Positions 48,862-58,721 of a stretch of 64,000 bases of DNA are shown here, one piece after another. Each line of letters opens with the position of its first letter. Positions within the stretch are counted from its first letter, which is position 1. The DNA comes from Altererythrobacter lutimaris (GTDB lineage: Bacteria > Pseudomonadota > Alphaproteobacteria > Sphingomonadales > Sphingomonadaceae). The notes below the pieces were generated by a model. It did no database searches. It was not told the DNA's origin and saw only the letters and a program-made list of their open reading frames with translations. The DNA lies in the NCBI RefSeq assembly GCF_013371495.1, contig NZ_JABWTA010000001.1, forward strand, positions 2,516,693 through 2,580,692, in the 5' to 3' direction. The position numbers and the translations under genes are program-made.

Positions 48862-49575
48862 TTAGCAGTTGTTCTCCAACAGTGGTTCGAGCGCAGTTTC
48901 TTCCTCACCGATACCAGCTATCCGGGCTTGCTGACGCGCTGCATTTTGCAGCGGTGCGCAGCTGAGCTTCGCGCCCTTCTCATGAGCGGCGAGAAGCACA
49001 TCATTATAGGTCGGTGTGCTCAGATCGCGTACAGCGGTTCTGACAAATGCTGCCTCCCAGCGCGCTGGTCCTGCGAGCAATTCCGCCATTTGATCGCGTC
49101 CTTCGGGGTTGCTGAGCACTTCGTCCGCGAGCTCTTCTAAGACTGCGCTGTTCGGCTCACGGGCGTAAAGCGCAGCAAGCCTCCTCGCGCTCTCAGCGGC
49201 ATCCCCGCCTGCCCACGCAATCCGCGCCATTGCTTCTTGCGCGATCGGATCACGCCAACCGCGCTGCGCGGCAAGCTGCAAGGCGAGTAATCCTTGTTCC
49301 GCTGACCCTTCTTGAAGCGCGGCTTGCGCGTAGAGCCGCATGTTTTCAGCAGGAACAGAACGGCGAGAAAGGAGCGTACTCGCTGCGGCCTGTGCTGCCT
49401 CTGGGTCCTCGCTTTGCAGCGCTTGAGCGGTGACATGTGTCTGCGCAAAATAGCGCGCGGGCTCTGGAACATACTTTGCCCATTGCGGTACATAACGACT
49501 TTGGCGGTCAAGCTGGAATGCCGTCGTCACAGCCGCAATCAGCAGCAGAGAAAGGATCCACATGTCTTGCTTCAT
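48862..49575 (-). CDS. Membrane-anchored helical-repeat protein, unknown
   Basis: A 237-residue protein with one N-terminal membrane helix (MWILSLLLIAAVTTAF) and a periplasmic Ala-rich part of helical pairs like TPR/SEL1 repeats (for example AQAALQEGSAEQGLLALQLAAQRGW and AMARIAWAGGDAAESARRLAALYA). It ends with two cysteines (LSCAPL, LENNC). It overlaps the polymerase gene by four bases, so it may help polysaccharide assembly. Confidence 0.6.
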   Translation of the reverse strand: MKQDMWILSLLLIAAVTTAFQLDRQSRYVPQWAKYVPEPARYFAQTHVTAQALQSEDPEAAQAAASTLLSRRSVPAENMRLYAQAALQEGSAEQGLLALQLAAQRGWRDPIAQEAMARIAWAGGDAAESARRLAALYAREPNSAVLEELADEVLSNPEGRDQMAELLAGPARWEAAFVRTAVRDLSTPTYNDVLLAAHEKGAKLSCAPLQNAARQQARIAGIGEEETALEPLLENNC

Positions 49576-50912
49576 GCGCGGGTCCCTTCTTCTGACTTGA
49601 CCATGACAAGTAGCGCGAGCGCTGCGACTGCGAGGATAGTGAGATTGCGCAGCGGGTAGTCAGTTGCGCTCTGAAGCGCGATGACGGTAAGCACAGCGGA
49701 TCCGGACCACGCGCTCCATCGGTTCGCAAAGTTGCGTGCTGAGAATGTGACCCACAGGCAATAGGTGAACCAGGAAAGGAGCAGCAGGATCGCCGGCAAC
49801 CCGCCTTCAATTGCGAGCTCGAGGTAATCATTGTGAGCGCGCCCGGCCTTCTTGAGCGTCAAATTTTCCAAAGCTTCATCACTCTGGAAGACTTCATCGA
49901 AAGCGCCCAGTCCAGCGCCGACCGGCCAATATCTTTCAGCGCTGTATAGAGCGTCGCTCCAAAGATAAGTGCGCGCATCTCCGCTTTGCTGGAAGCGGTC
50001 CATTACCGTCTCGATCCGCGCGGACGAGCTCAATGCCACGCCCGCCACGAGAAGAGCTGTGAGAGCCGCTGCGCCGTTTGCCAGCCAAGCGGGACGACGG
50101 AAGATGCTGTGGTCATTGCTATCGCCACCAGCGAACTGAACGATTAGCCGTATGCCCGCTATACCCAACGGGATGAGCGCGAGCACGATTGCCGTGCGCG
50201 ATTGCGTCAAGAACACAGCAAGCAAAAGAAGTACGGTGATTGACCAGCGTGCGATCTGCTGGGCGCGCGAGAGCTTCTGCCAAAGTGGAATGATCGCGAA
50301 ACAAAGCAGAGCTACGCAAAACAGACCAGCGGAATTGCGGTTTGCAAAGGTACCGAAAAGCACGTTCGGCATCAGGTTTTCAGGATAGAAGAGTAGCGAT
50401 TGATCGCCTGAGAGCACTTGCGCGAAGCCAACAGCAACCACGAACAAGCTGATTCCGATCGTGGTTAAGACTAAGCTGTTCAGGTCTTCTCGCTTAAGCG
50501 ACCAGCCAAGAGTGAGGATGGTGAGCGGCACGATCAGAGCAGAGGCTGCGACGATAGTCCTATGAGGTGCCATGCTAAGCGGAGAGGCGTTCTCGATTTC
50601 AAGAAGCTGCGACGTCGCGATCAGATGATCACGACCGGGTAGGCCAGCGATCCAATCATAAGGGAGTGGAACCAAGTGCAGCAAAGGCAGCGCTAATGAC
50701 GCGCCTACTAGTAAGCGCAGCAATATCGGCGCTTGATTCCAGAAGGCGAGGAACGCAGCGCGATTGAACGCAAGAATAGCAAGCGCGACTAGCTGAACGA
50801 CCAGATTGTTAAGGCCGTAAGCGACACCGCCGCCTCCCAGCAAGACAGCGACGACTAGCAACAGTATCAGATGTTTGCCGACTAAAGATCCAGCTAGGAC
50901 TGACTGGCTCAC
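49572..50912 (-). CDS. O-antigen ligase / polymerase family protein
   Basis: Polytopic membrane protein of 446 residues with about twelve helices. The Wzy_C/O-antigen ligase signature is visible: FGTFANRNSAGLFCVALL in the middle, FLTQSRTAIVLALIPLG, and the periplasmic loop with WPVGAGLGAFDEVF and KAGRAHNDYLELAIEGGLPA. It either polymerises repeat units or joins O-antigen to lipid A. It is the first gene of a pair with the helical-repeat protein and stands close to the rhamnose operon. Confidence 0.85.
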   Translation of the reverse strand: MSQSVLAGSLVGKHLILLLVVAVLLGGGGVAYGLNNLVVQLVALAILAFNRAAFLAFWNQAPILLRLLVGASLALPLLHLVPLPYDWIAGLPGRDHLIATSQLLEIENASPLSMAPHRTIVAASALIVPLTILTLGWSLKREDLNSLVLTTIGISLFVVAVGFAQVLSGDQSLLFYPENLMPNVLFGTFANRNSAGLFCVALLCFAIIPLWQKLSRAQQIARWSITVLLLLAVFLTQSRTAIVLALIPLGIAGIRLIVQFAGGDSNDHSIFRRPAWLANGAAALTALLVAGVALSSSARIETVMDRFQQSGDARTYLWSDALYSAERYWPVGAGLGAFDEVFQSDEALENLTLKKAGRAHNDYLELAIEGGLPAILLLLSWFTYCLWVTFSARNFANRWSAWSGSAVLTVIALQSATDYPLRNLTILAVAALALLVMVKSEEGTRA

Positions 50913-51012
50913 AAATCACACTCGGCTGCCCGCGGTAAATCGCGCACAAAGCAATTTTCTATGATCGAGTGGTGAGGTGCCGAAACGGTCCGCCCCATTG
51001 TCGGGCTGACGC

Positions 51013-51378
51013 TTAATTGGCGCCGGGCGACTGGTTGTCTGAAGTCGCTGCAACAACTGCCAGAGCAGCGATTGCAGAAAGGAACAGGACCGGTAGCAGC
51101 CGCCCGCGGATCGGATACCACTTGCCGTCATCGAGCAACCAACGGCGGCCGTCTGCGTCGACCCATGCCCGCGCTTCGTCGCTCCACACTCGGCCGTCAC
51201 GCATGCGTCCGGCCGACCGCAATTCTTCATCAGAACGTTCGCCCTGCATCAGATTGCCTGAATTATTGAAGACCGGTGACGTTGCAGCACGCGTCTGGGC
51301 GCTCGCCGCAACAGGAGTAATTGCCATGCCAGCAAGAGCTGCGATGAGAACAGTTTTTGAAAACACGTTGACCATCAT
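51013..51378 (-). CDS. Exported protein with C-terminal membrane anchor, unknown
   Basis: A 121-residue protein with signal peptide (cleavage after VAASA, about residue 27), a charged middle part (MRDGRVWSDEARAWVDADGRRWLLDDGKWYPI) and a C-terminal hydrophobic helix LLPVLFLSAIAALAVVAA. I recognise no family. The 222 bases between this gene and the lasso kinase gene are AT-rich and show nothing firm beyond possible divergent promoters. Confidence 0.55.
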   Translation of the reverse strand: MMVNVFSKTVLIAALAGMAITPVAASAQTRAATSPVFNNSGNLMQGERSDEELRSAGRMRDGRVWSDEARAWVDADGRRWLLDDGKWYPIRGRLLPVLFLSAIAALAVVAATSDNQSPGAN

Positions 51379-51600
51379 AAAATCCTAAAAATCACCAGCT
51401 TTGCGTATCCCAGATGCGTCAGGTTCATGAAGCGCATGTCGGGGTCCCTACGCCAAACTACTTAGCAAACCGCTACCTTAGTACGCAACCACCGAAATTA
51501 TCTCAGAATTTCATGCATATCGCGGGATTGACGCTGCTGCAAAGGGGATGAGCGGGAAAATTAAGCGAAAAAGGGCGCCCCGTGCGCTTCTCAGGGCGGA

Positions 51601-52608
51601 TTGACACTGTTTTCAGTCGATGGGGCAAAAGACGGCGTGCTTAAGGGCTTGCACTGGTCCAGATTTCCTTCGAGTGCGCAATCTATGAGCGGTTTCCTGT
51701 CTTGGCTTAAACTACCTATGGATGAGGCAGCGCGTGAAGCACAGGACGTGGTCTCAGAGGCGATGGACTGCCGACTAGAAGAGGACGTCCGCATTGTTGG
51801 CCGTGATAGACTCGAAGGTCCGCTACTGTATGAGCAAGATGATTTTGCGCTAGCTCAGGACGCTTTCTGGTTTAAAACACCTGCTGGCGTGCAGTTCTCT
51901 TATCAGGTCGGCGAAACGGTCAGGGCTTGGCTTCCAGACCCACAAAGCGCAGCGGAGTATGAAATTTTCCTTTGGGGCACGGTTTATGGTGCAGTTGCTT
52001 GGCTGAACGGCTTGATCCCCCTGCATGCAAGCTGTGTGGTCATGGCTCACAAACAACATGATAATGCCTCTGTACTGCCTCAAGCGATTGCGTTCACTGG
52101 AGATTCTGGAGCTGGAAAGTCTACTCTGGCTGCTAGCCTCGCCGTGAATGGCGCAAGTCAGCTGTGTGACGATACACTGGTTGTAATTCCCGCATGCGAC
52201 GGTTTGGTCGCGCTGCCGGACAATAAGCCTCTGAAGTTGTGGGCGGATAGCCTTGCGCTTCTGCAATTGGACAGCCGCGCCGAGATTTCAGCTGTTCCCG
52301 GCAAGCACTATGCACACAGTGCGAGGCGAATGACGCGGCCATGTATGTTGGCTGATCTTATAGTGCTGCAAGTAGGCTCGGAATTCGTGCTTCAAACTGT
52401 TGAGGGTCGTCACAAGCTCGCATACCTGCCAGCTGCACTTTATCGCGACATAATCCATATCAAGCGAGCCGATCACAAGCTCCATGGCAGAGTATTGACT
52501 GAGCTTGCCACCAAACTTCGGATCTGGACGCTAACTCGTCCGAAAGAGCCAGGAGATTTCCGTGCTGAGCTCGGCGAAGTTGAAAGGCTGCTGCAGGCGA
52601 TTGAATGA
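51601..52608 (+). CDS. HPr-kinase-like protein of the lasso-peptide cluster
   Basis: A 335-residue protein whose C-terminal half has the HPr kinase fold: P-loop GDSGAGKST at 167-175, His142 in IPLHASCVV and the acidic pair Asp190-Asp191 in QLCDDTLVV. Relatives in lasso-peptide clusters (for example in Paenibacillus paeninodin and Sphingobium) are known to phosphorylate the C-terminal Ser of the precursor, and the precursor next to it ends in Ser. The N-terminal third is poorly conserved. Start is uncertain: TTG 51601 has AGGGCGGA very close, and ATG 51685 (MSGFLSWLKL) is an alternative. Confidence 0.8.
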   Translation: MTLFSVDGAKDGVLKGLHWSRFPSSAQSMSGFLSWLKLPMDEAAREAQDVVSEAMDCRLEEDVRIVGRDRLEGPLLYEQDDFALAQDAFWFKTPAGVQFSYQVGETVRAWLPDPQSAAEYEIFLWGTVYGAVAWLNGLIPLHASCVVMAHKQHDNASVLPQAIAFTGDSGAGKSTLAASLAVNGASQLCDDTLVVIPACDGLVALPDNKPLKLWADSLALLQLDSRAEISAVPGKHYAHSARRMTRPCMLADLIVLQVGSEFVLQTVEGRHKLAYLPAALYRDIIHIKRADHKLHGRVLTELATKLRIWTLTRPKEPGDFRAELGEVERLLQAIE

Positions 52609-52774
52609 TCGGAACGCTCGCGTCCAGCACCCCGCACGGTCCGAGGCTTAGAGCTGTATCGACGAATCGGGCATTTTCGGCGAGAGTCTGGGCGTGGATA
52701 CGCCTTGAGATTACGGTAATTTAAGTATATGCCACTAAGCGAAAGCTAGAACATTGCTCGGAGCACATAGAATA

Positions 52775-52915
52775 ATGACTGGTCACAACGACAAAATGTC
52801 GGATCGCAAAGCTTGGCAAGAGCCGAAGCTTGAGCAGCTGACTGTTGATTTGACAGCTGTTGCTCAGCGCCGCAGTGGTAATTCCGACGCACGTGGAGTT
52901 GGCGCCGTAAGCTGA
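52775..52915 (+). CDS. Lasso-peptide precursor (46 residues, probable)
   Basis: A short ORF just before the B1 gene, in the position of a lasso precursor. The leader has the recognition element WQEPKLEQL (residues 14-22; canonical YxxPxL with Trp for Tyr). The C-terminal part reads AQRRSGNSDARGVGAVS. Ala30 as residue 1 would place Asp38 at position 9, giving a nine-residue ring and an eight-residue tail ending in Ser46, the presumed kinase target. The Thr usually at -2 of the core would then be at -3 (Thr27); taking the family's usual spacing from the Pro would instead start the core at Gln31 with Asp at 8. A GGAG site lies 11 bases before the ATG; a weak TTGAGA/TATATG pair (52705-52731) may be its promoter. 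Confidence 0.75.
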   Translation: MTGHNDKMSDRKAWQEPKLEQLTVDLTAVAQRRSGNSDARGVGAVS

Positions 52916-52996
52916 TAGGGGCAAGCGGCCAGTGGAGCCGTTAAGCTCGACAATTTGTAGGTCCTGCTATGTCGACTTTCACAATCACCAATCACT

Positions 52997-53263
52997 ATGC
53001 CGCAGCTCAAGAAATCTTCGGAAAAATTCCTCGCTAGCGAAGTGGATGGCGAGCTAATTCTTGTGCATGGCGATACCGGTGCATTCTTCGCAGTGAAGGA
53101 CGTGGGGTTGGATATCTGGCGCAAGCTCGACGAAACCAGTGATCTTGCTATTATAAGCGAGAAACTCTGCCGCGAATATGAGGTCAGCAAAGAGCAATGC
53201 CATCAATCCGTCCAACGCTTTGCGCAAGAGCTGGTTGACGCTGGCTTTGCGGAGTTCTCGTGA
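52997..53263 (+). CDS. Lasso-peptide B1 protein (PqqD-like RRE)
   Basis: An 88-residue PqqD-like protein: VDGELILVHGDTGAFFAVKDVGLDIWRKLD, then an acidic helical C-terminal part. In lasso clusters this RRE protein binds the leader peptide and presents it to the B2 protease. It lies 81 bases after the precursor. The next gene follows in a different frame. Confidence 0.85.
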   Translation: MPQLKKSSEKFLASEVDGELILVHGDTGAFFAVKDVGLDIWRKLDETSDLAIISEKLCREYEVSKEQCHQSVQRFAQELVDAGFAEFS

Positions 53264-53360
53264 CACAAAGCTGACGCGTGCATCGGAGCACAGTCGCTCC
53301 ACGAGAACAACAGATGGTGCAGCTTCGACTATCAAGGCCCAATTGCAAACTCTTGGCCAA

Positions 53361-53825
53361 ATGGCGACCGTGCTGCGCGCGGAATGGCTCATACGCTTTC
53401 GATCAATGGCTGCGTGGCAGCACAGTCTTGGTGTTGTGAAATCCTCAGGATTTGAACGGTCGGAAGGCTCGTGCGCTGACGAGCCCGCTCTTCAATGCGC
53501 GAAGCAATGCGCCAAACGCGTCGAACGTGCTGCCTTTCGATTGCCTTACGAGCCTAGATGCCTGCCGAAGGCGATGGCACTGCAATGGTCACTAAGGCAC
53601 CATGGAATCCCTTCACGCTTGGTCGTTGCAATGCGCAAGCAGTACCAGGTGAGTGGCGAAGCAGAAATCGCGCGGTTGCTTGAGGATGGAAACCGCTTCC
53701 ATGCCTGGGTCGATCTCGGCGATGACATGCTCATCGGACATTGCGAGCGTTCGGAATATAGACCGATCTTTGCATTCGACCTGTCGCCGATAATCGCTCC
53801 GGCGGCTGGCGGCGCGCAAGGCTAG
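53361..53825 (+). CDS. Lasso-peptide B2 leader protease (transglutaminase-like)
   Basis: Cysteine protease that removes the leader. The catalytic triad fits Cys67 (EPRCLPKAMALQWSLRHHGI), His114 (RFHAWVDLGDDM) and Asp118 or Asp121, counted from ATG 53361 (154 residues, the usual B2 length). The frame is open upstream to 53178, overlapping B1, but that extension has no family resemblance. B1 and B2 are separate genes here. Confidence 0.85.
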   Translation: MATVLRAEWLIRFRSMAAWQHSLGVVKSSGFERSEGSCADEPALQCAKQCAKRVERAAFRLPYEPRCLPKAMALQWSLRHHGIPSRLVVAMRKQYQVSGEAEIARLLEDGNRFHAWVDLGDDMLIGHCERSEYRPIFAFDLSPIIAPAAGGAQG

Positions 53826-53838
53826 GCCAGCGAGCACC

Positions 53839-55785
53839 ATGGGGCATCTCCTTTTCGCATTTGCCGTGGATCTGGCGCATGATGGCGGGTTCTCGGAGCA
53901 GTCTCGGGGAATTGTGCAATCGCTTGAAGCGGGCAAAGGGGGTTTTGTATCCGCGTGTGCAATTCGGTCGGGAGTAGTCGCGGTTCGCGAGGAATACTCT
54001 TTCAAGCCTGCTGGGCGGCAATCAGAACAGTGGGAGCCAGCTGAAGGCCCGGATGGGTGGCACACCGTCCTGATCGGCCGATTACAGGAAAGAGCGGTTG
54101 CGGCGCGCTGTCTCTCGCTCCCGCCAGACACCTCAGACGCAGCGATTTACGCCGCGGCTTATGGAAAGTATGGCGAGAACTGCGACGAGCATTTGCTTGG
54201 CGATTATGCCGCTGTGCAATGGCACGAAGAGCGCGGGCAGGTGCGTTTCGCCCGGTCGTCGATGAGCCTGCAGCCACTACATGTCTGGCGCGACGGAAGC
54301 CGAATTGTCGCGGCGTCCTTGCCGCGCAGCTTGATCGCTGCCGGGCTCGAGCCCCGGATTGACCAGATAATGCTGGAAGACAGCCTCTTGCTGAACTTCA
54401 GCGATGCAAGACGCAGTTGGTATCAAGGCGCGCATCGCGTAGCGGCTGGTAGCTTCGAAGTGCACACTGTAGGGCGCTGTAGCACCAGAAGGTCCTTCTC
54501 GCTCAAATGTGTGAAGCCGGTCCGGTTCGTGCGTGACGAGGAATATGTGGAGGCCTTGGACGAGCACTTTCGCCGCGCGGTTGTCGCAGAAAGCGAAGGA
54601 ATTCATCGTCCGGCAATCTTGTTGTCTGGCGGCTTCGATTCTCAGTGCGTCACAAGCTATCTCGCGGGCGCTGGCCAATTTGAAAGTCCCATTGAGACGT
54701 TCACTTCCATCCCTCAAACCGGATATGTCGAACCTGAAAAACCCTATTCCTTCGGCGACGAAGCCCCCTATGTCCGGGCACTTGCAAAGCAATATCCGCA
54801 GCTCAATCCGCATTTTATTACTGGTGCGGATCGCCCCTTTGGCAGCGACCTGGCTGAAATCATGCGGTTGGGTGGGTGGCCCATGCGCAATGAAAGCAAT
54901 CTGCACTGGATTCACGGGTCATATGAGCAAGCGGCGGGTATTGGTTGTGACGCCATGTTTGCAGGTGCAGCAGGCAATGCCACTTTCAGCTATGACGGGC
55001 TGACCGGCTATCCGACTTGGCTGCGCGAAGGGGATCTTGGGCGCTTGGTTGTGGAGCTGCGGGCACGCCGCGATGACCCGCGTTCCTTGCTGCGAAAATT
55101 CCTCGCCTTAGCAGTCATGCCTCATCTACCGGCAAGCGTGCGGGATACGATCCAGCAAAGGCGCGGAAGGGATAGCGATCCGTTTGAGAGCTGGTGTCCG
55201 ATGAAAGCATCCCATGCCGAGTACAGCGGCGCATTGGATCGCGCCTTGGCAGCAGGCTTCGATCCGCGATTCCCTGCCTTGCGCAGCTCGCGCGAATGGC
55301 GAGCCAGTGCATTTGAAGAGATGCTCAATCAGGCAGCGGAAATCGAACTCGCGTTCCGCTTGCATCATGGGGTACCCTCCCGTGATCCCACTCTGTTTCA
55401 GCCACTGGTCGAGTTCACGACCGGGATAGCAGACGATCAGTATCTGCGCGATGGCGAGGATCGCTGGCTCGCGCGCCGGCTACTCAAGTGCCGGGTGCCC
55501 GAGATCGTTTGGCGCGAGCATCGCATTGGGAGGCAATCGCCTGACTGGGCTTTGCGCTTTCAGCGTGACCGCCAGGCATTGCTCGCCGAACTGCAAAGGT
55601 TGCGCAATGATAGCCAGCTTGCTGGCATTCTTGATCTGGATCGGCTGGAAGGCGATTTGCGGGATTGGGATGGCTCTGAGGACACCGCTGGCCTCTGGAA
55701 GCAAAAGGTCCACTCCGGCGTCAGCAGAGCGCTATCGACAGCCCGGTTCGTGCGCTATGTCGAGCGACGCAATGTCGGGGTCTGA
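53839..55785 (+). CDS. Lasso-peptide cyclase (asparagine synthase-like)
   Basis: A 648-residue protein with an N-terminal glutaminase-like domain that has lost the catalytic N-terminal Cys (it begins MGHLLFAF), and a C-terminal asparagine synthase domain with pyrophosphate loop SGGFDSQ at 263-269. In lasso clusters it activates the Asp side chain as an adenylate and closes the ring with the core N terminus. It begins 13 bases after B2 and overlaps the exporter gene. Confidence 0.9.
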   Translation: MGHLLFAFAVDLAHDGGFSEQSRGIVQSLEAGKGGFVSACAIRSGVVAVREEYSFKPAGRQSEQWEPAEGPDGWHTVLIGRLQERAVAARCLSLPPDTSDAAIYAAAYGKYGENCDEHLLGDYAAVQWHEERGQVRFARSSMSLQPLHVWRDGSRIVAASLPRSLIAAGLEPRIDQIMLEDSLLLNFSDARRSWYQGAHRVAAGSFEVHTVGRCSTRRSFSLKCVKPVRFVRDEEYVEALDEHFRRAVVAESEGIHRPAILLSGGFDSQCVTSYLAGAGQFESPIETFTSIPQTGYVEPEKPYSFGDEAPYVRALAKQYPQLNPHFITGADRPFGSDLAEIMRLGGWPMRNESNLHWIHGSYEQAAGIGCDAMFAGAAGNATFSYDGLTGYPTWLREGDLGRLVVELRARRDDPRSLLRKFLALAVMPHLPASVRDTIQQRRGRDSDPFESWCPMKASHAEYSGALDRALAAGFDPRFPALRSSREWRASAFEEMLNQAAEIELAFRLHHGVPSRDPTLFQPLVEFTTGIADDQYLRDGEDRWLARRLLKCRVPEIVWREHRIGRQSPDWALRFQRDRQALLAELQRLRNDSQLAGILDLDRLEGDLRDWDGSEDTAGLWKQKVHSGVSRALSTARFVRYVERRNVGV

Positions 55786-57511
55786 TGTGAACTTGGAGAG
55801 CAGCGAAGCAAGACATGCGCTTTCGCATGGCGACGCACTTCGCTTTATCCTCGGTTATGTGGGGCCGGGCCACTTGGCGCTGCTTGGGGCGCTTCTGGTT
55901 CTGACGTCGCTGAGCGAAGGCCTTGGCCTGCTTCTGCTTGTGCCGGTGACGCAACTCATCGTTGGAATAGATGCAACCAATCTGGAGCCCGCTTGGCTTG
56001 GCGATTGGGCGAATGTGCCGCCAGCCGTTTTGCTCGCAGGCGTGGTGGCATTGATCTGCGCGCGCGCGGCGCTGGTCTATGTGACGAATTATCTGCGTAC
56101 AGAGATTGATCTGTCATTCACTCGCGATCTGCGGCGCGATGCGCATCGTGCGCTCGTCAGAGCGGAATGGCGTTGGCTTGCAGGGCGGCATAGCGCTGAT
56201 CACGAGGCGCTATTGCTAGGTGAGGCCAACCGCGCTGGAATGCTGTTGGACCAAGCGCTCTTTCTGGCATCAGCAACGATTACGCTCTTGGTCTTGATCG
56301 CTGCAGCACTGCTCATTTCTCCAGACCTGACGCTCGGAGTTTTAGCCATAGCTGCCATTTTTGCCCTACCTTTCCTGATACTTAAAGGCCGCACCGCGCG
56401 TGATGCGGAAAGCTATGCGGATGCGTATGCCGGTCTGCACCGAGAGGTTTCGGGCGGATTGGCGCATCTGCGTTCTGCCCGTATCGCCGGGGCCGGTTCT
56501 GTAATGGAACAGCGCTTTTCGGATGCGAGCGAGCAGGTCCGCACCACTGAGCTTCGCTATGTGCGGCATGGCTTTATGCTTGTCGCCATCGTGCAAGCCG
56601 TGGCAGCCGCATTACTCGCCGGAATGGTCTATTTCGCGCTGATCAGAGGCGATGTTGCCTTGAGCATTTTTGTGCCCTTGCTGGCTCTGCTGGCGCGCTC
56701 GGCGCCGCTCGCGGGAGCGATCTTGCAAGGCATCCGGCAATGGCGTCACGCACAGCCTGCATTGGCGCGGCTCCGGGGCTTGATCGAAGAGGCGCGCGGT
56801 CATGCCGAAGTTGAATTTGTCGGTGCGGGATCGCGGCCGATACAGCTTGAACGAAGCATCGAATTGAAGGATGTAACTCTCAAGTTTGAAGGGCGCGAAG
56901 CACCTGTTTTTCATGCATTTTCCGCATCCATTGCCGCGAATTCTGTTACTGCAATTACGGGTCCATCAGGCTCTGGAAAAAGCTCTCTTGCAGACATTGT
57001 GAGCGGCCTGATCGAACCTGATGGCGGCACGGTGAGCGTCGATGACACACCGCTTGTCGGCCAAGCGCGCCTGCAGTGGAGAGCGCAAGTCGCTTATGCC
57101 GAGCAAGCCCCCTTCCTGTTTGCCGGAAGCATCGCCGAGAACATCGCTTGGGCTGCGCCGGACACGTCTTTTCACGAGGTTCAATCAGCGCTGGACGCGG
57201 CTTCTGCTGATTTCATAGATCGCTTGCCGGAGGGCGTGAACAGCGCTGTACAGGAAGAAGGACGGGGCTTTTCCGGCGGGGAGAAACAGCGGCTCGCTTT
57301 GGCACGCGCATTGCTGCGAAAACCGCAATTGCTAATCCTGGACGAGGTCACGGCATCGCTTGACCAGTCCAACAAGGATGCAATCATACAAAGTATCGAA
57401 ATGATGCGGTCAAAATGCACAATCCTCATCCTGACGCATGATGAACAGTTTGCCGCCCTCGCTGATAACGTCATCGACCTCAGTGGTTTAGCGGATGAAT
57501 CCAATGGCTGA
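55772..57511 (+). CDS. Lasso-peptide ABC exporter
   Basis: Half-size ABC transporter, about 579 residues, with six N-terminal membrane helices and an ATPase domain: Walker A GPSGSGKSS, signature FSGGEKQR and Walker B LLILDEV. It would export the mature peptide and give self-protection. The frame is open from 55451, inside the cyclase gene. ATG 55757, ATG 55772 and GTG 55787 are all possible starts; 55772 is taken. Confidence 0.87.
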   Translation: MSGSDVNLESSEARHALSHGDALRFILGYVGPGHLALLGALLVLTSLSEGLGLLLLVPVTQLIVGIDATNLEPAWLGDWANVPPAVLLAGVVALICARAALVYVTNYLRTEIDLSFTRDLRRDAHRALVRAEWRWLAGRHSADHEALLLGEANRAGMLLDQALFLASATITLLVLIAAALLISPDLTLGVLAIAAIFALPFLILKGRTARDAESYADAYAGLHREVSGGLAHLRSARIAGAGSVMEQRFSDASEQVRTTELRYVRHGFMLVAIVQAVAAALLAGMVYFALIRGDVALSIFVPLLALLARSAPLAGAILQGIRQWRHAQPALARLRGLIEEARGHAEVEFVGAGSRPIQLERSIELKDVTLKFEGREAPVFHAFSASIAANSVTAITGPSGSGKSSLADIVSGLIEPDGGTVSVDDTPLVGQARLQWRAQVAYAEQAPFLFAGSIAENIAWAAPDTSFHEVQSALDAASADFIDRLPEGVNSAVQEEGRGFSGGEKQRLALARALLRKPQLLILDEVTASLDQSNKDAIIQSIEMMRSKCTILILTHDEQFAALADNVIDLSGLADESNG

Positions 57512-58721
57512 CGCATTGCCTGCAGCATATGCAGCCATCCTCGGTATTTGTGCTGATCCCGAGGGTAACCACGAGAATTTGCTCTCGAGATTACCCCTAG
57601 ATCAGTGGCAGATGATGCGAGATCTCGCCATCAGAAGCCGGGTTGCGCCGCTTGTCGTGCAGACGCTCGACCGATGGAAAGCCGTTCCGAAAGACGCAGC
57701 GGAACCCATCGCAGACCTGCGCGAGCAAGCCCGGTTTCATGCGCTCGCTGCGCTTCAGACAGCCTCCGATGTCGGCCATGTGCTCTCCGTGCTTGCGGAG
57801 GATGGGCTGGAGCCGATTGTGCTGAAAGGCACGCCGCTCGCTTTCCAGATCTATCCCGATCCGGCGCTTAGACCGCTGCGCGATATCGACTTGCTCCTGA
57901 GCGCGGAAGAAACGCTTGCAGCGCAGGCCCTGCTCCTCGCTCATTCCGATTTCGAGCGTGTGCCAGGGGTTGCGCAATATGGCGTCGAGCACAGTCATCA
58001 GCTTCCGGAAATCCGCTATCGCAAGTCTGGCCTTGTGATCGAGTTGCATCACCGCTTGAATGCGCGCGGCTGGCCGCAAGAGCCTGAACTTGTCCAGGCA
58101 ATGCGAACCAATGCCGAGGTCACCTCAGTCCTTGGCCAAGAAGTCCGCGTTCCCAGCCGGCAGGACAATTTTCTCCATCTGCTCGAACATGCAACGTTGC
58201 ATCACCTGTTCGCAAACGGCCCGCTGGTGTTGGCTGATCTGCATTACCTCACCTCCGCCAGCGAGTGGGACTGGGATGCTATCATGGAGCGTGTAGATGC
58301 GCTCGCTCTCACGCGCAGCCTTGAGCTGGTTTGCGCGCTTGCTTCAGAACACGGCGCTACATGGGTTCCCGCCGCGCTTCTCGGCAAGAACACCGTTCCC
58401 AAATCACACTGCGCAGCAGCACGCGATGCGATGCTGGCGAGCGAGGACGATACACAGCAGCAGGCGATGCTTGGTCGGCTGGCTGAGCGGTCCGATGGCC
58501 GCATGGGCTGGAGCGCCGCTTTCTCGCGTGTTTTCCAGCCGGATGCCGCTCAGCTCAGCATGCTCTCGGGGCATCCCAAAAGCAGCGTCTTCAGATGGCT
58601 CGGCTACCCGAAATGGCTCTGGCGCAAAGCAAAACTATTCGCCGACGCGAAGGCTTCTGACGCATCGCGCAAAGCGGCCACTGATCGTCTGGCACTCTCG
58701 CGCTGGCTCGAAGGTGCCTGA
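57495..58721 (+). CDS. Nucleotidyltransferase family protein (lasso cluster)
   Basis: A 408-residue protein of the NTP_transf_5 (PF14907) type, recognised by VLKGTPLAFQIYPDPALRPLRDIDLLLS with the acidic DID triad. Similar genes occur in lasso clusters that carry the HPr-kinase-like gene; they are thought to modify the peptide, perhaps after phosphorylation, but the reaction is unknown to me. It overlaps the ABC exporter gene, so it belongs to the same operon. Start at ATG 57495 or 57504. Confidence 0.75.
   Translation: MNPMADALPAAYAAILGICADPEGNHENLLSRLPLDQWQMMRDLAIRSRVAPLVVQTLDRWKAVPKDAAEPIADLREQARFHALAALQTASDVGHVLSVLAEDGLEPIVLKGTPLAFQIYPDPALRPLRDIDLLLSAEETLAAQALLLAHSDFERVPGVAQYGVEHSHQLPEIRYRKSGLVIELHHRLNARGWPQEPELVQAMRTNAEVTSVLGQEVRVPSRQDNFLHLLEHATLHHLFANGPLVLADLHYLTSASEWDWDAIMERVDALALTRSLELVCALASEHGATWVPAALLGKNTVPKSHCAAARDAMLASEDDTQQQAMLGRLAERSDGRMGWSAAFSRVFQPDAAQLSMLSGHPKSSVFRWLGYPKWLWRKAKLFADAKASDASRKAATDRLALSRWLEGA

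Follow-up and report, generated by a model that had tools for sequence, protein, structure and literature searches.

We analyzed a 64,000-nt stretch of the Altererythrobacter lutimaris genome (2.95 Mb, 33 contigs, completeness 99.95%), referred to below as the window, in which a candidate lasso-peptide cluster occupies positions 51601-58721 of the plus strand. Seven genes lie there on a single strand, in the order kinase (K), precursor (A), B1, B2, cyclase (C), ATP-binding cassette (ABC) exporter (D) and NTP_transf_5 protein (N). These genes had been named from the letters of the DNA in the original prediction, and their coordinates, order and common strand were all confirmed by open reading frames (ORFs) and family matches. 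The features are:

51601..52608, + strand: K, HPrK-like precursor kinase (start uncertain, TTG 51601 or ATG 51685)
52775..52915, + strand: A, precursor, 46 residues (conservation, shuffles, register)
52775..52864, + strand: leader, W(-17)..P(-14).L(-12), V(-2) A(-1) (common register of the 11 clade precursors, as proven for BsfA, PMC10368454)
52865..52912, + strand: predicted core QRRSGNSDARGVGAVS (Q1, D8, S16; boundary placed by the register)
52997..53263, + strand: B1, PqqD-like leader-binding protein (RRE) (PF05402, 1.1e-15)
53178..53825, + strand: B2, transglutaminase-fold leader peptidase (NF033537, 43.4 bits; start 53178 or 53361)
53839..55785, + strand: C, Asn-synthetase-like macrolactam cyclase lacking the N-terminal Cys (PF00733, NF033535)
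55772..57511, + strand: D, ABC exporter (PF00005, 1.2e-28; PF00664, 2.1e-9)
57495..58721, + strand: N, NTP_transf_5 protein (PF14907, 3.9e-41)

The most probable exporter start, 55772, lies inside the end of the cyclase gene. Relatives were collected by searching 397 genomes of the family, 70 of which have a cyclase match at E ≤ 1e-25. The resulting set of 80 loci consists of 77 places with such matches, the window, and the loci L031 and L032. Precursors were sought as W..P tails with V/I at W+14 or W+15, position 8 of the core being outside the pattern. Excluded before counting were tails starting with Tyr or Phe and a further 21 W..P tails, of which 20 did not fit the register and one was too long; the dropped tails are likely chance occurrences for the most part, with L114, L121 and L122 likely holding precursors of other types. 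This gave 56 precursors in 55 of the 80 loci, 11 in a W-17 class (the window clade) and 45 in a W-16 class.

Precursor gene, leader register and core

The proposed precursor, MTGHNDKMSDRKAWQEPKLEQLTVDLTAVAQRRSGNSDARGVGAVS, is encoded in the 388-nt gap between the kinase and B1 genes, with possible starts at ATG 52775 (46 residues), ATG 52796 (39 residues) and TTG 52754 (53 residues). In 20,000 dinucleotide shuffles of this gap, a strict precursor pattern (W..P.[LVIM], V/I at W+14 or W+15, Asp/Glu at core position 7-9 and a final Ser) never appeared, and an ORF with a loose W..P.L pattern appeared in 50. We also compared 45 ORFs of 20-110 residues at 50901-53900 with seven sister loci (E ≤ 0.01). 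On the plus strand only the precursor ORF and B1 matched all seven, the precursor with E values from 9.8e-13 to 8.8e-4, and the 45 included no rival conserved plus-strand ORF of the kind that would have spoken against it. One minus-strand ORF, antisense to B2, also matched 7/7 loci; minus-strand matches, lying opposite K, A, B1 or B2, were considered as alternative precursors and rejected. Compared with L031 and L032, 24 of 40 precursor codons (stop included) have the same meaning, 12 and 14 of them with base changes, respectively. Base changes fall at the three codon positions in the proportions 14/13/19 and 16/12/21, a modest third-position excess (19/46 and 21/49). On this sequence evidence, the predicted 46-residue precursor ORF is a real gene, with alternatives for its exact start. 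The family model NF033524 (paeninodin family) scored it at 21.1 bits, under the cut-off of 27, and therefore would not by itself call the window precursor; among 10 other precursors, it gave three weaker matches and no match to the remaining seven.

The register was read from BsfA, the precursor of the bsf cluster of Bradymonas sediminis (Duan 2023, PMC10368454). BsfA has Tyr(-17), Pro(-14) and Leu(-12) and is cleaved by B1/B2 after Ile(-2), and Ile/Val(-2) precursors were reported from Sphingomonadales in the same study. Applied to the window, this register gives W(-17), P(-14), L(-12), V(-2) and A(-1) followed by the core, and with Val at -2, Gln therefore falls at core position 1. The -2 residue is Ile in the two nearest sisters, L031 and L032. 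The leader and core had been predicted to be of lasso type, and this agrees with what we found: WQEPKL fits [YW]..P.L (W..P being, in the 11 clade precursors, part of the search pattern), an acid lies within core positions 7-9 (Asp8 in the assigned register), and the core ends in Ser, with Val replacing the usual Thr at -2. We did not take Thr(-2) as defining, because BsfA is naturally cut at Ile(-2) (PMC10368454). A Thr(-2) reading of the window, using the Thr at W+13, was rejected: the ring would have ten residues, and the Thr lacks conservation.

Homologues in the same position with the leader and Asp, which the original prediction had proposed to look for, were present in related genomes. 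Position 8 of the W-17 class is Asp in 9/11, Gly with Asp9 in one (L053) and Gln in one (L056), whose core is acid-free. Position 1 is more varied (Gln in three, Asn in two, Gly in two, and Ala, Thr, Leu and Ser in one each). Cleavage one residue earlier by the same enzymes would instead give AQRRSGNSD, closed as an Ala1-Asp9 ring of nine residues, which we consider unlikely. Nine-residue rings are common among lasso peptides. Ala is also an established first residue (PMC12670498); however, the Ala site is Arg in L031 and L032 and Glu or Leu in L055 and L057, and V/I(-2) is found in 11/11 clade precursors, V/I being in the search pattern. The predicted ring joins Gln1 and Asp8.

The window core and its Gln1 are new, and the class is already published. 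Lasso peptides starting with Trp1 and Leu1 are known. Gly, Cys, Ser and Ala are given as examples of first residues in the report of metanodin, whose Asn1 is described there as the first of its kind, and which mentions, as an untested case, a metanodin relative with Gln at position 1 (PMC12670498). No proven Gln1 lasso peptide was found in our literature search or in the available review passages.

Maturation enzymes and predicted product

The kinase has weak sequence matches (TIGR04352, 3.1e-7 and 29.8 bits against a cut-off of 200; Hpr_kinase_C, 0.085). Its AlphaFold2 (AF2) model (predicted local distance difference test, pLDDT, 85.7) matches phosphoenolpyruvate carboxykinase (PEPCK; 1.4e-5) and HprK/P (2.2e-5) in the PDB. 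The His, P-loop GKS and Asp-Asp of bsf-type kinases are present as H142, SG.GKST (169-175) and D190-D191 and do not vary among the 10 clade kinases aligned, that of the window included; the first Gly of the bsf motif as printed is Ala in several clade kinases. B1 is 38-56% identical to its counterparts in 7/7 sister loci. B2 exceeds the NF033537 (lasso_biosyn_B2) cut-off of 33 bits, matches Transglut_core3 (1.4e-14) and has the motifs CL[PS][KQR]A and HAWV[DE], found in 11/11 aligned clade B2 proteins, so that B1 and B2 both have the family matches of lasso maturation proteins. The cyclase is Asn-synthetase-like (PF00733, 1.5e-16) and lacks the glutaminase Cys, and its match to the lasso cyclase model NF033535 (2e-30, 106 bits) is below the curated cut-off of 525. 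SGG.DS is invariant across 10 clade cyclases, and the AF2 model (pLDDT 88.5) matches TsnB9 (6.5e-20), beta-lactam synthetase (1.8e-18) and the asparagine synthetase AsnB. The N protein, by its position, would be the counterpart of PsmN/BsfN.

The cluster is genuine and probably working, and we favor, with moderate confidence drawn from its gene content and alignments, the interpretation that its product is a phosphorylated peptide of lasso type belonging to the Ile/Val(-2) class. The gene content (K, A, B1, B2, C, D, N) is that of the bsf cluster, for which in vitro work demonstrated both the kinase activity and the cut after Ile(-2) (PMC10368454). From the gene set we infer the following pathway. 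B1 would bind the W..P.L leader, and the kinase would phosphorylate the precursor, most likely at the C-terminal Ser16. B2, with B1, would cleave after V(-2)-A(-1), the site suggested by the alignment, to release the 16-residue core. The cyclase would then adenylate Asp8 and link it to the Gln1 amine, giving an eight-residue ring and an eight-residue tail, and the ABC protein would export the product. The N protein may attach a sugar or a nucleotide to the phosphate. The predicted monoisotopic mass is 1597.8033 for the cyclised core and 1677.7696 with one phosphate. Ser16 is favored as the phosphate site because the terminal Ser is conserved (Ser in 55/56 precursors: 11/11 in the W-17 class and 44 in the W-16 class, which has Thr in one). 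Paeninodin-type kinases phosphorylate the C-terminal Ser, and PsmN has been linked to a hexose on the phosphate (PMC9266682).

Several points weigh against this interpretation. The phosphate site is uncertain, since BsfK phosphorylates Ser3 and not the terminal Ser (PMC10368454), and the window core has two other Ser residues: Ser4, replaced by Ala in L031, and Ser7, replaced by Thr in both L031 and L032. Gln1 lies outside the proven first residues that we found and could close on itself to pyroglutamate. L056, a member of the window clade, has Gln8 and no acid in its core, so Asp8 is no absolute rule. The order K-A-B1-B2-C-D-N is retained in 6/11 clade loci (the window, L031, L032, L050, L051 and L053), and in the other five D or N is reversed, displaced or missing. 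A mature lasso was never detected in the bsf study (PMC10368454), and the product of the window, likewise unobserved, is a prediction from its genes.

Alternatively, the product could be an unthreaded phosphopeptide, cyclic or branched-cyclic. Its predicted tail is short and lacks an aromatic plug residue, and sequence cannot reveal threading. However, complete lasso gene sets like this one yield phosphorylated lassos such as paeninodin (PMC9266682), and we regard an unthreaded product as improbable, if slightly less so than the Ala1-Asp9 ring. Less probable still is a decaying or silent cluster that makes no product. In favor of it, the related bsf cluster stays silent under laboratory conditions (PMC10368454), and a cyclase match at E ≤ 1e-25 was found in 0/10 other genomes of the genus; against this, the seven genes all have open frames, their catalytic motifs are preserved, and the 24/40 precursor codons keep their meaning with the modest third-position excess noted above.

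Compared with known systems, the predicted phosphorylated lasso-type peptide is closest to that of bsf, which shares the seven gene kinds, the aromatic(-17)..P(-14).L(-12) leader, a branched -2 residue and Asp8, but has Gly1, a C-terminal Asp and a Ser3 phosphate where the window has Gln1 and a C-terminal Ser16 (PMC10368454). Paeninodin and pseudomycoidin (PadeK; PsmK, PsmN; PMC9266682) resemble the window in their C-terminal Ser kinase, the nucleotidyltransferase gene psmN and the weak NF033524 leader match, whereas they come from Firmicutes and have leaders with Thr(-2), a feature that PMC10368454 ascribes to earlier precursors, and the window precursor falls under the NF033524 cut-off. Metanodin (PMC12670498) likewise has a non-canonical first ring residue and a precursor left unannotated by antiSMASH; it differs in its Asn1 and Thr(-2), established by mass spectrometry.

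Acid and amide residues at the predicted ring-closing position

The W-16 class differs from the window clade at position 8. Among its 45 precursors this residue is Gln in 35, Glu in two and Asp in one, while the other seven have Asp9 (three), Gln9 (two) or Asn9 (two). Asp/Glu is absent from the whole core in 24/45, beside lasso-type cyclases. The Gln8 sister class has cyclases homologous to that of the window (27-32% identical to it in Gln8 loci of the W-16 class) and shares V/I(-2), a C-terminal Ser or Thr and, in part, K, B1, B2, D and N; unlike the window, it has Gln where the ring-closing acid would be expected, a precursor that adjoins the cyclase and a leader one residue shorter. With window proteins as tblastn queries, 7 of 36 Gln8 rows (the 35 and L056) matched all of K, B1, B2, C, D and N; L056 is one of these seven, with D distant and on the opposite strand. 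Fewer gene matches in the other rows may be due to low sensitivity. Acid-free cores in loci matching all seven genes occur in L088 and in L094 (GNGTVQNQGRSTGSVANS; N match short).

In a tree of 55 cyclases (IQ-TREE quick mode, with support from the Shimodaira-Hasegawa-like approximate likelihood ratio test, SH-aLRT, only), the window groups with L031 and L032 (99). L056 (Gln8) falls within the Asp clade, L069 (Asp8) groups with L071/L073 (Gln8) (99), and L112 (Glu8) lies among Gln8 rows (97). At least five changes between the acid and amide states are needed on this tree, and this repeated switching therefore suggests that Gln8 fills the place of Asp8, although ring closure by Gln8 is not proven thereby. 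Among the 55 cyclases, and in four contrasts between sisters, no cyclase column convincingly tracked acid versus amide; agreement in 4/4 contrasts was seen for two variable columns, neither of which separated the classes.

Two further ideas were considered. Glutamine-dependent amidation by the cyclase was thought unlikely: across the 55 loci with a precursor, the open cyclase frame contains no Met-Cys within its first 140 residues; in 17 of them a Val-Cys or Leu-Cys pair is found there. A missing B2 was rejected as a mark of Gln8, as several Gln8 loci have a cluster B2. Ten clusters with precursor and cyclase lack a B2 match (L068, L075, L079, L080, L093, L097, L100, L105, L107 and L110), and in 10/10 a B2 is present elsewhere in the genome, some of which may serve another lasso cluster.

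Ring closure in this family may thus need no Asp/Glu. Tentatively, and with more doubt than belief, we suggest from the core alignments that the ring-closing side chain is an acid or an amide, Asp8 in the window and Gln8 (35/45) or Asn9 (2/45) in the sister class. Should Gln8 be the ring-closing residue, whether through transamidation (on the transglutaminase-fold B2 or on the cyclase) or following a dedicated deamidation, the products would be lasso-type macrolactams made from an amide. Gln as a ring-closing residue did not appear in the literature searched or in the available passages of a 2026 review (PMC13352647); it may be in print, as most subscription papers, including two on phosphorylated lassos, lay outside this coverage. 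The Gln8 class is more surprising than the window cluster itself, which serves as a clean Asp8 reference with a predicted Gln1 in a family where both ends of the ring bond stray from textbook residues. It raises the questions of how free lasso position 1 is and whether an Asn-synthetase-like cyclase system can close a ring on Gln. Precursor mining that requires Thr(-2), Gly1 or Asp/Glu would overlook such precursors.

A few loci have unusual precursors. L102:5572-5876 holds two in one cluster, both Gln8, one acid-free and the other with Asp9. L110 and L116 have Asn9 cores with Asp14 as the sole acid, and their cyclases form a long, well supported branch. At L061:5718-5816 the core has Pro1 and Glu8, an unexpected combination if the ring closes through the N-terminal amine.

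Genomic site of the cluster

The cluster is flanked by an O-antigen ligase gene (Wzy_C) on one side and rmlACDB on the other. The nearest named clusters are from uncultured Erythrobacter, and a plasmid search gave just two records, both distant. The ligase is present in the extracted stretch of 6/10 sister loci (L031, L032, L050, L051, L053 and L056). The site between the ligase and rml genes (window 49572-50912 to 58827) was compared with seven congener stretches, L127-L133, some of which have a lasso cluster of Thr(-2) type there, in most cases accompanied by a methyltransferase, and others no lasso cluster. L127, L129, L130 and L133 have a different cluster at this site, encoding an Asn-synthase-like protein and precursors that were read by eye as Thr(-2); L128 has the same kinds of genes and no precursor by the motif used. 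A methyltransferase (Pfam) is found in four of these five clusters, the exception being L127. In L131 the ligase and RmlA are less than 0.9 kb apart, and in L132 the 2.7 kb between ligase and rml genes contains a phage integrase (L132:2896-4200).

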